A stretch of DNA of 64,000 nt. Source: Bremerella sp. P1. GTDB lineage: Bacteria; Planctomycetota; Planctomycetia; Pirellulales; Pirellulaceae. The translations under genes and the position numbers were made by a program. Below, one piece after another: positions 29,006 through 62,958 of the stretch. Each line of letters begins with the position of its first letter. Within the stretch, counting starts at the first letter, position 1. Below the pieces are notes generated by a model. That model was not told where the DNA came from. It saw nothing but the letters and a program-made list of their open reading frames with translations, and ran no database searches. The stretch is taken from assembly GCF_028748185.1 (NCBI RefSeq), contig NZ_CP118164.1, positions 744,001 to 808,000 of the forward strand, given 5' to 3'.

Positions 29006-30925
29006 TTACGTGCGTTGGAATCTCCGGTCGAGTTCCTCTTTGGTAAAGACCAACGCCGTGGGACGGCCGTGGGGGCAATGATGGGCGTCCTGGCAAAGAT
29101 GCCGCAATTCAAGCAAAGCGTCGATTTCTTCGCTGGAGAGACGATCTCCGGCCTTGATGGCGGCCTTGCACGACATCATGTGCAGCAGTTCGTCCAAAAG
29201 ATCTCTTTTTTCGAGATTCTTCCCCTCGGTCAGCAGTTGATCGACCACTTCTCGCACGATTTCCGCCGGTTTGCGACGTCCAAGAATCGCCGGATAGCTG
29301 CGAATGAGGATCGTATCGCCGCCGAATGCTTCGACTTCGATGCCGACTTGCTGCAACGTTTCAGTAGCTCCGTCGACCGCAGCGAACTCTTGGGCGGATA
29401 GATTCAACGTCTCGGGAACCAACAATCGCTGCACCTCAAGCCGACGAGCCAGGGCCTTTTCGCGCAGCTCTTCGTAAAGGATCCTTTCGTGCAGCGCATG
29501 CTGATCAATGACGGCCATCCCTTCGTCCGTCTCGGCAATCAGATACCGGTTATGCAATTGAATGGCTCGCTGCTGCGAACCGACGCCGCCTCCTTGAGTT
29601 GGCATGGGAGTCGGCTCAGTTGATTCCTCTTCGGCGGCTTCCTGATTCCGCACATGCGCTGGGGTGACCCCACTGGGAATCGGCGGCAATGGTAAGCTGC
29701 CTGCCCCGACGGCCGACCGATCGATCGGATTGAGCTGAAGCGGAGTATGGCTCGGCGAACGGAAGTCGAGGTCGAAGTCGGCCTGGCGACGCTCAGCCGA
29801 ACCACTGGAAGTTGCGTCCGTATCAACAGCGCCCTTCGCCCAAGCGACCAGTTCTTCGCGCAGGGCTTCGGTCGACGGGGTATCGCCGTGTGCCGAACGA
29901 ACCTGATCGTCTGCGGGGCGATAGGTCGCATCCAGGTTCGAGCTAAGAAACTTCGTCCGCAGCGTGCCCAACAGCTGGCTATAGATTCGACCGCTGTCCT
30001 GAAAGCGAACTTCCAGCTTGGTCGGGTGGACGTTCACGTCGACCATCTCAGGCGGCATCGACATTTGCAAAAAGGAAATCGGATAGCGACCATGCAGCAG
30101 CAGCCCGCGGTACGCTTCCCCGAGGGCATGCTGCAGCGCGCGATCCTTGATGAATCGTCCGTTCAAAAACAGATACTGCATCCGGTTGTTACTGCGACTG
30201 AAACGTGGGTTCCCGACGAAACCGCACAGCGTGACCTGATCGTTTTCGCTTTCGACCTCAATCAGTTGGTCGGCGATTTCCTCGCCAAAGAAAATACGAA
30301 TCCGTTCGCGAAGGTCCTGGCAGGGCGGCAGGTCATGAACCTGACGCGAACCATGTTTAAGCGTGAAGTGAACGTGCGGATAAGCCAACGCCATCCGAGT
30401 GAACGCTTCGCTGATGTGGCCAAATTCGGTCTGGGTTGTCTTCAGGAACTTCTTTCGAACCGGCGTATTGTAAAACAGGTTGCGGATCTCGATGATCGTC
30501 CCCGGCGGGCAGCCACATGGCTGGGCTTCCTGCACGTTGCCCCCATGCACGAGCATCTCGTTGCCGCAGTCGGCATCGTGGGTGCGGCTGCGAAGCAGGA
30601 AGTGACTCACCTCCGAGATCGATGCGAGGGCTTCCCCGCGAAAGCCGAGGGTGCGGACATGGAACAGATCGTCGGCGTTACCGATCTTGCTGGTCGCGTG
30701 CGAAGCGATCGTCAGCGGCATGTCTTCCGGCGCGATGCCGCAGCCGTCGTCGGCGATGCGAATGAGTTCGGCCCCACCGTGCTCGATGGTGACGTCAATT
30801 CGCGTGGCGCCGGCGTCGAGCGAGTTTTCCATCAGCTCTTTGACGGCGCTTGCCGGGCGCTCGATCACTTCGCCTGCCGCGATCTTGTTGACGACACTTG
30901 CAGAAAGTTGTTGAATCTTCGGCAT
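29006..30925 (-). CDS. mutL: DNA mismatch repair protein MutL
   Basis: A 639-residue GHKL ATPase. N-terminal motifs: VIERPASAVKELMENSLDAG, DDGCGI, and HATSKI with TLGFRGEAL. A variable Ser/Pro-rich linker follows (about 340-445). The C-terminal domain carries the metal-dependent nicking-endonuclease motif DQHA(x2)E(x4)E, seen as DQHALHERILYEE, plus SCKAAIKAGD and CPHGRP. This is therefore the nicking type found in bacteria lacking MutH. No mutS is in the window. Start ATG 30925, 36 nt after the response regulator stop, so it may be read from the same transcript. Confidence 0.96.
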   Translation of the reverse strand: MPKIQQLSASVVNKIAAGEVIERPASAVKELMENSLDAGATRIDVTIEHGGAELIRIADDGCGIAPEDMPLTIASHATSKIGNADDLFHVRTLGFRGEALASISEVSHFLLRSRTHDADCGNEMLVHGGNVQEAQPCGCPPGTIIEIRNLFYNTPVRKKFLKTTQTEFGHISEAFTRMALAYPHVHFTLKHGSRQVHDLPPCQDLRERIRIFFGEEIADQLIEVESENDQVTLCGFVGNPRFSRSNNRMQYLFLNGRFIKDRALQHALGEAYRGLLLHGRYPISFLQMSMPPEMVDVNVHPTKLEVRFQDSGRIYSQLLGTLRTKFLSSNLDATYRPADDQVRSAHGDTPSTEALREELVAWAKGAVDTDATSSGSAERRQADFDLDFRSPSHTPLQLNPIDRSAVGAGSLPLPPIPSGVTPAHVRNQEAAEEESTEPTPMPTQGGGVGSQQRAIQLHNRYLIAETDEGMAVIDQHALHERILYEELREKALARRLEVQRLLVPETLNLSAQEFAAVDGATETLQQVGIEVEAFGGDTILIRSYPAILGRRKPAEIVREVVDQLLTEGKNLEKRDLLDELLHMMSCKAAIKAGDRLSSEEIDALLELRHLCQDAHHCPHGRPTALVFTKEELDRRFQRT

Positions 30926-30960: not shown

Positions 30961-32409
30961 TCAGTCGCCGCGTAATCCGTATTCTTTGATTTTGCGATAG
31001 AGGGTTCTCTCACCAATCCCCAGCAGCTTGGCCGCTTCTTCACGATTGCCGCTGGTCGCTTTGAGCGTTTCGCCAATCAACCACTTTTCAACTTCGCTGA
31101 TCGGCTGACCTACCATATTGGGCATTTCGCCGTTGGCGGAAACAGCCGGCTTGGGGTCGATCGGTGGGACTAGGTCGTCCCCTTCCTGAATCAACTCGGG
31201 CGGAAGGTCGTCGAGCCCGATCGTACCATCCAAATCGAGTACGACCATGCTCTCGGCAAAGTTCCGCAGTTGCCGAACGTTGCCTGGCCAGTCGTAGTCC
31301 AAACAGCGCTGAAAAACCGTTCGATCGATTCCCCGCACCTTCTTGTCGTGCTTTTTGGAAAAGACCTTCAGGAAGTGATCGAACAACGGCAGGATATCAT
31401 CGGGGCGTTCCCGCAGCGGCGGCAACTGTACCGTCACGATCCGCAGGCGGTGGTAAAGGTCAGAGCGGAACGTGCCTGCTGCAATGGCGTTTTCCAGATC
31501 GGCATTGGTCGCCGAAAGGAGCCGCACGTTGATACGGATCGGCTTATTCTCACCGACGCGAGTAATCTCGCCTGACTCCAGCACCCGTAACAGCTTGACC
31601 TGGGTGGCCATCGGCATGTCGCCGATTTCATCCAGGAACAACGTCCCGCCGTTGGCATATTCTAGTCGACCGATCCGTTCGCTGGCGGCGTCGGTGTAGG
31701 CCCCTTTGGCGTGACCGAACAGTTCGCTTTCCAGCAGGTGTTCGCTCAGCTCGGCACAGTTCAGGGGAACGAACGGCTTCTTCTTGCGAGGGCTGTTCTG
31801 GTGAATGGCCTGAGCGACGACTTCCTTCCCGGTACCGGTCTCGCCCAGGATCAGCACGCTGGCATCGGTCGGGGCGATACGCTGCAATCGCTGCACGACC
31901 TGCCGCATCTTGTTGCTCGAATAGATGAGCCCTTCGAAGCCGAACTTCTCGTCCAGCCGCCGCATCAATTCCGAGTTCTGCCGTTTGAGCTGAATCGTCT
32001 GAGCCGCTTTGAGCGCCGCCGCGCGAAGCTTATCTGGGGTGAGGGGCTTTTCCAGGAAATTGAGCGCTTCGTTCTGCATCGCCTCAACGGCAGTCGAGAC
32101 AGTCGCATGCCCCGTGACGACGATCACTTCGCAGTTGGGTCGGTTCTCTTTGGTGAGTTGCAAGATGCCCATGCCGTCGATGTCGTTCATGACCAGGTCG
32201 GTCACGACAATCTCGAACGGTTCGGCCAGGATCTTCTCGGCCCCTTCCGGCCCGCTGGTAGCCACGGTGCAGACAAAACCGATCCGTTCCAGGCTCTCAG
32301 CCATGGTCATGGCGTGGGCCTTGTCGTTGTCGACGACCAGCACGCGGAACTGGTCCGGCTGAACGTCGAGCGTATCGGATTGTGGCTGGGTTTGGGCGTC
32401 TTGCGTCAT
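30961..32409 (-). CDS. NtrC-family sigma-54-dependent response regulator
   Basis: A 482-residue regulator. It has an N-terminal receiver domain (VLVVDNDKAHAMTMAESL, phosphoacceptor in VVTDLVMNDIDG), then an AAA+ domain with GETGTGKE and GGTLFLDEIGDM, and a C-terminal Fis-type helix-turn-helix (EEAAKLLGIGERTLYRKIKEY). The sigma-54-contacting GAFTGA loop reads GAYTDA. Start ATG 32409 (MTQDAQT); the frame extends to 32436 without support. Its likely partner kinase is the gene at 32833-33621, upstream on the same strand but separated by a palindromic element. No obvious sigma-54 promoter was spotted nearby. Confidence 0.92.
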   Translation of the reverse strand: MTQDAQTQPQSDTLDVQPDQFRVLVVDNDKAHAMTMAESLERIGFVCTVATSGPEGAEKILAEPFEIVVTDLVMNDIDGMGILQLTKENRPNCEVIVVTGHATVSTAVEAMQNEALNFLEKPLTPDKLRAAALKAAQTIQLKRQNSELMRRLDEKFGFEGLIYSSNKMRQVVQRLQRIAPTDASVLILGETGTGKEVVAQAIHQNSPRKKKPFVPLNCAELSEHLLESELFGHAKGAYTDAASERIGRLEYANGGTLFLDEIGDMPMATQVKLLRVLESGEITRVGENKPIRINVRLLSATNADLENAIAAGTFRSDLYHRLRIVTVQLPPLRERPDDILPLFDHFLKVFSKKHDKKVRGIDRTVFQRCLDYDWPGNVRQLRNFAESMVVLDLDGTIGLDDLPPELIQEGDDLVPPIDPKPAVSANGEMPNMVGQPISEVEKWLIGETLKATSGNREEAAKLLGIGERTLYRKIKEYGLRGD

Positions 32410-32481
32410 GCCACCATCGTACCGAAGAAGTGCCAATTCCTCTAGAACCGTTCTCTTGTTGAGGTTCTAGGAAGAAAGGAT

Positions 32482-32803
32482 TAGCCACAGAGCACACAGA
32501 GGTCATCGAGCGAAGAATTTTTCAAATCACAGGCTCGGTACTCGCAGAGCGGGTGGCCCAGAGAGATCCCTCTCTGGGTCGGCATTGCCGACAAGCGGCT
32601 AATGCATAAGGCTTGAAGGAGGTAGAAACTTTCTCTCTTGTTCATGCTCGATGCATGAGCCTCTCGTGGCCTGAGGCCACCCAGAGAGAAATCTCTCTGG
32701 GCCACCCGAATAGCTCGATATGTTCCATCTCCCCATATCTTATCCGTGACCATCCGTGGTCAATAATTCTTCATCTCAGTGCTCTCTGTGACCTCTGTGG
32801 CTA
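32482..32803. repeat. Nested palindromic non-coding element with about 38-nt terminal inverted repeats
   Basis: The outer arms are 32482-32519 and 32765-32803. Read inward, both carry TAGCCACAGAG, ACAGAG, GAG and GAAGAATT at matching spacing with a few substitutions. Inside is a second inverted pair: about 32551-32583 and 32676-32708 share GGGTGGCCCAGAGAGAT. Each inner copy is itself a hairpin (CCCAGAGA/TCTCTGGG at 557-578; CCCAGAGAGA/TCTCTCTGGG at 32680-32701). Further dyads are GCATT...AATGC and GTGGCC/GGCCAC in the centre. It fills the gap between the kinase and regulator genes and encodes nothing recognisable. Confidence 0.8.
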
Positions 32804-32832
32804 TTCCCTCTTCCACGTGAGCGATACAAACG

Positions 32833-33621
32833 CTACCCATCTGATTCCATCGACTCCGGCGCCTTCTTGCTTCCGATTCGCTTGGGCAGAGGGAATTCCA
32901 GCGTAAATTGCGTCCCACGCCCCAGTTCGCTTTGCACGTCGATGGTCGCGTGGTGGGCTTCGATAATCTTCTTAGCCAGCGGCAATCCGAGCCCCGAGCC
33001 CCCCTCCTTGGTCGAATAGAACGGATCGAACATCCGCAGGGCTGTTGTATCGCTCATGCCGCAGCCGGTATCGACCAGCCGCAACAGCACGCCACTGCGA
33101 AACTCGCGGGTTTGCACCATCAGTGAGCCCCCGTCCGGCATCGCCTGAATCGCATTGACCACCAGGTTTAACAGGGCCGAATAAAGCAGCTCGGCATCCA
33201 GATCGATGCTGGGCAGTTCCGAGTCAAGATAACGAATAATCTCGACCCCTTGGCGATCGGCCTGAGGCTCGACGAAGTTGAGTACGCGCTCGATCTGCTC
33301 GTTCAAACTGCCCGGCAAGAGATTGAGATCGCGGATCCGGGCAAACCGCAGAAAGTCATTCAAAAGCCCCTGCAGGCGCTCGCACTGCTCCTGCACCGTC
33401 TCGATCTTCTGTTTAGCCCGTCGCTGCTGAGGCGTCTGCGGGTCGTCCAGATCTTCGGCCAGCAGTTCCATATTCATCCGAATGACCGACAACGGCGTCT
33501 TGATCTCGTGCGCCAGCGAGCCTGCCAGGCGGGCGATCTCGTTGTACTGATCAACCAGGTACTGATCACGCGACTTTTCGCGAGACGGCTCGATCGAGTC
33601 ATGGGAGGAAGAATGATCCAT
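32833..33621 (-). CDS. Soluble histidine kinase (NtrB-like)
   Basis: A 262-residue kinase without membrane helices or a sensor domain. HisKA: His38 in GSLAHEIKTPLSVIRMN. HATPase: NLVVNAIQAMPDGG (N box), DTGCGMS (G1), FDPFYSTKEGGSGLGLPLAKKI (described in part; F and G2 boxes). A short polar N-terminus rich in Ser/Asp/Arg precedes HisKA. The tail is basic. It probably phosphorylates the NtrC-type regulator encoded downstream. Start ATG 33621; GTG 33633 is an alternative. The signal it senses is not visible in the sequence. Confidence 0.9.
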   Translation of the reverse strand: MDHSSSHDSIEPSREKSRDQYLVDQYNEIARLAGSLAHEIKTPLSVIRMNMELLAEDLDDPQTPQQRRAKQKIETVQEQCERLQGLLNDFLRFARIRDLNLLPGSLNEQIERVLNFVEPQADRQGVEIIRYLDSELPSIDLDAELLYSALLNLVVNAIQAMPDGGSLMVQTREFRSGVLLRLVDTGCGMSDTTALRMFDPFYSTKEGGSGLGLPLAKKIIEAHHATIDVQSELGRGTQFTLEFPLPKRIGSKKAPESMESDG

Positions 33622-33708
33622 GGTTGTTCTCACGAAAACGCCCGGAGCACTTACGTACTCCGGGCGATCGATGTTATCGGTTGAACTCAGAACTATCGCT
33701 CGAAGCTC

Positions 33709-62834: not shown

Positions 62835-62958
62835 GGAAAACCGCAGAGCCAAGAGCAAAGAAAACCACCGCGGATTACGCAGATATTCGCGGATGCGGAG
62901 AGGATCGCCTTTGGCGATCTTAGTTATCAGCGTCGATCCGCGTACTCTGCGGTTTTCC
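62835..62958. repeat. Non-coding dyad element with 14-bp perfect terminal inverted repeats
   Basis: GGAAAACCGCAGAG (62835-62848) recurs inverted at 62945-62958. Between them is a string of related words (GCGGATTACGC, ATATTCGCGGAT) and a 7-bp hairpin GATCGCC-TTT-GGCGATC (62903-62919). It ends 3 nt before the stop codon of the VWA gene and encodes nothing. It resembles in style, not in sequence, the element at 32482-32803. Confidence 0.7.

Follow-up and report, generated by a model that had tools for sequence, protein, structure and literature searches.

Our analysis suggests that the long palindrome lying between a histidine kinase gene and a sigma-54 (NtrC-type) response regulator gene of Bremerella sp. 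P1 arose by stepwise nested insertion, a reading to which, taken as a whole, we give a probability of about 0.7. The outer repeat, here called A, would be a gene-less relative of small elements built around genes of the GxxExxY family, and a second, REPIN-like repeat, here called B, would have landed inside it. B would be copied by a REP-associated tyrosine transposase (RAYT), and A would be spread by the GxxExxY nuclease.

A preliminary description of this DNA had placed a single element of 322 bp at positions 32482-32803 of the window, by which we mean the whole stretch of 64,000 nucleotides that was analysed. It had noted outer inverted arms, a second inverted pair inside them and hairpins within each inner copy, all between the kinase and the regulator. 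This nested anatomy was confirmed by an inverted-repeat search of the window, which recovered outer arms at 32478-32510 and 32775-32807 (33 nt, 79% complementary), inner arms at 32550-32628 and 32630-32708 (79 nt, 75% complementary) and 22-nt hairpins at 32557-32578 and 32680-32701. The palindromic nest is real, but it dissolves into separate nested families, with A extending to about 32470 and 32816 and B occupying 32551-32707. The features of the locus are as follows.

30961-32436, minus strand: ORF of the sigma-54 (NtrC-type) response regulator, downstream of the insertion (Pfam profile match)
32833-33633, minus strand: ORF of the histidine kinase, upstream of the insertion (Pfam profile match)
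about 32470-32816: A, the outer layer, with inverted arms of tandem seven-letter words, CACAGAG, and CACGGAT inside
32470-32519, plus strand: outer arm of A, left copy, GGAAGAAAGGATTAGCCACAGAGCACACAGAGGTCATCGAGCGAAGAATT (pattern match at genome position 776482, 1 mismatch)
32770-32816, minus strand: outer arm of A, right copy (pattern match at genome position 776784, 0 mismatches)
32740-32769, minus strand: inner CACGGAT-type arm of A, made of tandem words of the same type as the arms of the GxxExxY gene in the congener G006
32551-32707, no strand assigned: B, the 157-bp REPIN-like repeat in the loop of A (genome copies and an alignment of 22 copies)
32557-32578, no strand assigned: first hairpin of B, left half (pairing conserved in 22 copies)
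32579-32591, no strand assigned: second hairpin of B, left half, TCGGCATTGCCGA (two-sided changes in 22 copies)
32667-32679, no strand assigned: second hairpin of B, right half, TGGCCTGAGGCCA (two-sided changes in 22 copies)
32680-32701, no strand assigned: first hairpin of B, right half (inverted-repeat search and pairing in 22 copies)

The true start of the regulator is probably an ATG within its ORF, and the next ORF after it (29006-30925) is one that we take to be mutL. The left-side partner of the inner CACGGAT-type arm is lost or degraded. Another A-like element is present in the window at 62837-62957, with CGCAGAG and CGCGGAT words in inverted arms.

The order of insertion could be read from the kinase-regulator junction in eight congeners, gaps being taken as the distances between the ends of tblastn matches. 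In five of them (G001, G002, G004, G005 and G008) the junction is a gap of 63-97 bp that contains neither A nor B. G006, whose kinase has the highest identity (97%), carries A without B, the window genome carries both, and G003 and G007 have other sequence at this position. Because A stands alone in G006, is filled by B in the window genome and is missing together with B from five congeners, A must have come first and B must have landed later inside it; for this one site, the only one at which presence and absence of A were compared, the genomes of the relatives show that order. At the empty sites of G001 and G004, one flank shares ACGTGGCA and the other CGGTTCTAGAGG with G006, and no target duplication was seen there by eye, about 20 nt at one edge of this single site being ambiguous. 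Among the 17 junctions shown, from 30 loci, a third one with arms of this kind is that of G037, a more distant genome of the same order, whose A-like arms have other words (CGCAGAG, CGCGGAG) and are perhaps an independent insertion.

The same comparison bears on the idea that the 322 bp move as one unit. Such an element would account for the presence of B inside A in G004 and G006 as well, and twice within one A of the Bremerella sp. P1 genome; yet it is contradicted by G006, with its A devoid of B at the very same site. Moreover, in the Bremerella sp. P1 genome 11 of the 13 paired A elements lack a full B, and six of the nine B copies are located outside paired A arms. We consider a single mobile unit next to inconceivable.

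When the genome was searched with the palindromic element, its middle and the ends matched separately. B is present in nine copies of at least 100 bp in the 6.96-Mb genome (window copy counted), and the pattern of the A arms has 30 matches at three mismatches or fewer, against one for a control pattern. These arms form 13 pairs, 11 of which span 137-208 bp, with a median of 169. The pair of the window is longer (322 bp) because B sits inside it, and that at 4897957-4899097 reaches 1140 bp and encloses two B copies and a RAYT gene. By eye, 11 of the 13 pairs have CACGGAT-type words inward of their CACAGAG-type arms, on one side or on both; the element of the window has kept them on a single side. 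A is thus short, non-coding and multi-copy, has inverted ends, and is found at a site that is filled in G006 and empty in most congeners, all of which is MITE-like, the last point for one site. The suspicion in the preliminary description that this locus holds a dispersed element, possibly a non-autonomous mobile relic, has therefore held up, as further copies occur in the genome and the junction is empty in close relatives. Correction of the two arms of one A as a pair is not supported, median likeness being 40 within and 39 between A copies (13 elements). The loop of an A element at 413029-413197 contains a single short hairpin, GGCCCAGAGA...TCTCTGGGCC, that may be left over from B, and a second palindromic repeat family (GTGTGCCACTG...) is located inside A elements in G006 (2757700-2758300) and in the Bremerella sp. 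P1 genome near 2350180.

Alternatively, A could be a structural or regulatory site maintained by the host for its function, comparable to protein-binding REP clusters, and merely used by the GxxExxY genes. The tandem words follow one another at a spacing of 8-9 bases and in this resemble repeated protein-binding sites, and A pattern matches were obtained in all nine genomes of the genus. However, the number of matches varies from 1 to 46 within this one genus, the low counts being near that of the control pattern, and a site kept for its function would hardly be absent from the junction in five of eight congeners. We regard this explanation as improbable.

The inner repeat has a different history and, apparently, a different helper. 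In an alignment of 22 copies of B from three genomes, 98.0% of the cells in the four local hairpins are paired, and two-sided changes number 36, compared with 11.9 for shuffles. The letters of the second hairpin differ between the two halves in several copies, so that each half is seemingly kept as a hairpin unit of its own; this seems to be what single-strand recognition by an HUH transposase would need. In the Bremerella sp. P1 genome, two B copies enclose a RAYT gene, at 4898366, whose product scores 94.1 bits with NCBIfam REP_Tyr_transpos (cut-off 80), stays under the IS200 family cut-off (transpos_IS200, 29.3 bits vs 55) and is not a classical IS200/IS605 transposase. Two related RAYTs, 62% and 53% identical to it, are present in G008, where each sits between half-units of the plan GGGTGG-hairpin-GCCGACAAG, with hairpin letters unlike those of B. 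Judged by its letters and its neighbours, B is a double-hairpin repeat of the REPIN/TIRtron kind: it is a dispersed inverted pair of hairpin units, and a RAYT-type gene is flanked by the same repeat in the Bremerella sp. P1 genome and by variant half-units in G008. A GTAG or CGTC tag is absent from B, whose full-length copies start, by eye, with GG[GT]TGG or close variants.

The distributions of B and of these RAYTs in the congeners speak against a simple dependence of the one on the other. G006 contains B and has no match to the RAYT of Bremerella sp. P1, G004 contains B and RAYTs that are only about 30% identical, and G008 contains the closest RAYTs among the congeners and has no match to B; the numbers of B in G004 and G006 are lower bounds, 40 of 71 and 40 of 41 candidates having been scored. 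G006 also has B at one further site, 107788, which in G001 and G008 is empty. The Bremerella sp. P1 genome has two other RAYT genes, at 4237253 and 3121072, which adjoin other repeats, AAGAAAAGGGGTCAGGTCTCTTTT and CACGCCCAAGTCCGCTTGGGCGTG. By eye, a B copy and a right A-type arm are present in G004 (C14:1700-2600), with a flank like that of the RAYT locus of Bremerella sp. P1 and no RAYT between them.

B was found within paired A arms at five of the 56 B loci of at least 100 bp in the three genomes, against about 0.14 expected when the intergenic share is assumed to be 12% (range 0.08-0.20). Three of these cases, in two elements, belong to the Bremerella sp. P1 genome (G000), one to G004 and one to G006. 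The excess is strong in G000 alone (P 1.6e-6, the two RAYT-side copies, which may be one event, being counted as separate events) and marginal in G004 (P 0.042) and G006 (P 0.068) alone. It is tempting to suggest that B tends to land in the palindromic A. At 2735400-2736200 of G006, left arms of A and a B copy are followed by a new transposase-like gene, presumably of the IS110 type, as if an insertion sequence had entered this nest.

The identity of A emerges from the arms that surround GxxExxY genes in the same genus. The Bremerella sp. P1 genome has a single PF13366 gene (PDDEXK_3; NCBIfam GxxExxY), located between inverted CGCGGAT arms, and such a gene is present in four of the nine genomes of the genus. 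In G008 it is bracketed by arms of the outer type of the window, TTAGCCACAGAGGACACAGAGATCACAGAG, and its flank is identical to the right arm of the window at 35 of 42 positions and to the left arm at 37 of 46 (local identity). The GxxExxY genes of G000, G006 and G007 lie between CACGGAT- or CGCGGAT-type arms, as in the inner pair of A. In addition, the A copy at 2350180 matches the flank of the GxxExxY gene of its own genome (43/49). The inner-arm remnant of the window scores above shuffles against the GxxExxY flanks of G006 (26 vs 20 and 32 vs 26) and not above them against the flanks in its own genome (24 vs 25 and 18 vs 22). Since arms of both types found in A enclose GxxExxY genes in this genus, we take A, most plausibly, for a relative of GxxExxY elements that lacks the gene. 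How many A arms a genome has does not follow from whether it has the gene: 25 and 26 arms were counted in G001 and G004, which show no PF13366 match, and only four in G007, which has the gene.

The words of A had been associated with planctomycete genomes in the preliminary description, but they are not special to them, as CACAGAG-type words flank GxxExxY genes in many phyla. Within the phylum, the 150-nt flanks of 77 of 85 PF13366 loci match each other as an inverted repeat above every shuffle (88 loci were at hand and three were dropped; they were drawn from the best matches and lean to strong members of the family). At 300 nt further out, only two of the 85 exceed the shuffled maximum. Measured against the flanks of other loci (95th percentile), 48 of the 85 exceed at the gene and ten at 300 nt further out, the former value being modest because PF13366 loci share one word grammar. 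A wider scan of named genomes covered 78 of the best 80 of at least 583 confirmed relatives, with taxon labels assigned by hand; the shuffled maximum was exceeded at 57 of these 78 loci, in Pseudomonadota, Chloroflexota, Acidobacteriota, Verrucomicrobiota, Bacteroidota and other groups, and not at the one archaeal locus of the scan. Six viral GxxExxY loci were also found.

Under a strict test for tandem words, whose rule misses the case of G008, 89 of 171 loci had them on both sides and 113 on either, compared with none and one for shuffled flanks and with 10 and 27 for the wrong orientation. The first word is identical on the two sides in 75 of the 89. At kinase loci, used as a control, exact inverted words of at least 11 nt occur in two of 30 and a tandem word in one of 30, in a set that includes two loci with A. 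Among GxxExxY loci, the word follows the protein: on the protein tree of 95 loci (the label of G008 being given by hand), 39 word changes are needed, vs 58.1 for shuffled labels (minimum 52 of 300) and 57.2 (minimum 51) for shuffling within groups, which are coarse for part of the genomes. Such agreement would also come from shared descent of the element and its gene.

PF05635 four-helix (23S rRNA IVP) genes of the phylum have flanks of short inverted tandem words as well, such as AGTGGTTAGTGA and TTAGTTGTTAGT, in a vocabulary unlike that of GxxExxY loci. Their flanks exceed the shuffled maximum as inverted repeats at 26 of 28 loci; the corresponding control at 300 nt (1 of 28) carries little weight as its shuffled maximum is 58, with medians of 15 and 15. 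These genes are relevant to the proposal of a passive role for the arms, as a landing pad or recombination cassette that traps small genes (GxxExxY, RAYT, PF05635), with GxxExxY playing no role in their spread. A pad of this sort would explain why one A pair of the Bremerella sp. P1 genome encloses a RAYT and two B copies instead of a GxxExxY gene, why A arms are plentiful in genomes that lack this gene, and why PF05635 genes too are provided with inverted arms. The words nevertheless differ from one gene family to the other, the CACAGAG-type tandem word being found in none of the 28 PF05635 loci, and among GxxExxY loci the word tracks the protein tree. We consider a passive pad unlikely, if worth bearing in mind, and prefer to view the GxxExxY protein as a partner of its arms.

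This protein has the sequence hallmarks of the PD-(D/E)XK nuclease superfamily. The product of the gene in the Bremerella sp. P1 genome matches the family profiles well above their cut-offs (119.7 bits vs 22 for PF13366 and 126.2 vs 35 for TIGR04256). It also has the catalytic D and (E/D)xK residues: D63 and K75 are present in 19 of 19 rows, and E73 in nearly all, replaced by D in this gene. A fold model with a pLDDT of 95.0 (35 rows) has SSO0001 (4ic1) as its best match, at middling values (Z 9.4, 3.3 Å, 96 residues), followed by other PD-(D/E)XK proteins, including archaeal Holliday junction resolvases (Hjc 1gef, Z 7.1). A Foldseek search with the model returned no match at an E-value of 0.001 or better (best 0.009), and sequence search found no relative with a known structure. 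Reading a mechanism from the fold was rejected, as the matches spread over several nuclease families at similar Z. Our hypothesis is that the GxxExxY protein cuts the arms or the cruciforms that they can form. Among the matches listed, the open-access literature on GxxExxY/PF13366 offered passing mentions only, with no role described.

For the two-component genes themselves, the insertion widens the gap between kinase and regulator from 63-97 bp to about 400 bp and would load a joint transcript, if there is one, with a stable structure. As the preliminary description proposed, this could conceivably uncouple expression along a kinase-regulator-mutL transcript or serve as a site of RNA processing. 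The large structured RNA anticipated by the preliminary description is indeed predicted: as RNA, the minus strand of 32482-32803 folds at -167.7 kcal/mol, vs a mean of -104.3 (sd 5.5) for 100 shuffles, none of which is as good (z -11.6), although any long palindrome would do so. A role as promoter or terminator was rejected, as a sequence scan of 32350-33000 found no sigma-70-like promoter and a single terminator-like site, located on the strand opposite to the genes. A known RNA family was rejected too, the only match reaching 14 bits against a gathering score of 40.

Taken together, these observations lead us to propose the following scenario. A, a non-coding repeat of about 170 bp, would first have entered the gap between kinase and regulator, and B, with two hairpins per half, would then have landed in its loop. 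A RAYT-type HUH/tyrosine transposase would copy B by acting on single-stranded hairpins, while the GxxExxY nuclease would act, or would have acted, on the arms or on their cruciform, repair or copying then spreading A. We infer the movement of either repeat by its protein. Nested insertion of small repeats is an ordinary event, and the order is unusually clear here; what stands out is the nature of the outer repeat, best regarded as a relative, without a gene of its own, of the arm system that is widely spread around GxxExxY genes.

More generally, and more tentatively, GxxExxY genes and their inverted arms of tandem words could represent very widespread and undescribed small mobile elements, which would owe their spread to a PD-(D/E)XK nuclease at work on the arms rather than to a transposase. 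Copies that lack the gene, A among them, would belong here, and PF05635 four-helix genes, which have their own words, may be a second branch. We put this at somewhat less than an even chance. GxxExxY (TIGR04256/PF13366) is a common protein family for which we found no role described. Should inverted, word-built arms indeed surround its genes in many phyla, with a word that goes with the protein and with copies lacking the gene strewn over genomes, then a role for the family could be put to the test, and a common type of intergenic repeat would be accounted for. Among the matches listed, no description of GxxExxY arms was found in the open-access literature, and papers beyond these could hold one; a search for an arm-word repeat was uninformative, with no title concerning one among the best 15 of 10,919 matches. 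In any case, the window makes it easy to read how repeat families insert into each other, since close relatives reveal which event came first.

MITEs and their kin are small non-autonomous inverted-repeat elements. A resembles them in being short and non-coding, in having inverted arms and many copies, and in being present or absent at the site tested. Unlike MITEs, it has arms made of tandem words, such arms enclose a nuclease-like gene and not one for a transposase, and no target duplication was seen at that site. REPINs consist of two inverted hairpin units around a short spacer, occur in many copies and are linked to RAYTs. B shares this plan, spacer, copy number and RAYT link included, and differs from REPINs by its greater length, by a second hairpin in each unit and by its head sequence. 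REPINs are among the closest known systems to B (Bertels and Rainey, 2011, PMC3116915). The other close systems are REPtrons and TIRtrons, in which RAYT or TIRYT tyrosine transposase genes are associated with REPs or with terminal inverted repeats (Di Nocera et al., 2013, PMC3733652); that study also reports repeat-flanked tyrosine transposase genes in R. baltica. Compared with what is described there (PMC3733652), B is likewise a dispersed hairpin repeat, organized in inverted pairs, which itself or as a variant flanks a RAYT gene, but it has the head GGGTGG rather than GTAG or CGTC and is 157 bp long with two hairpins per half. For the GxxExxY elements, a parallel is offered by 23S rRNA intervening sequences with an S23 (PF05635) gene, such as the Coxiella IVS (PMC4990558), likewise a small element with one small gene, whereas GxxExxY elements use another protein family and other words. 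The PF05635 genes of the present set, which presumably lie outside the rRNA context, also have inverted word-arms.
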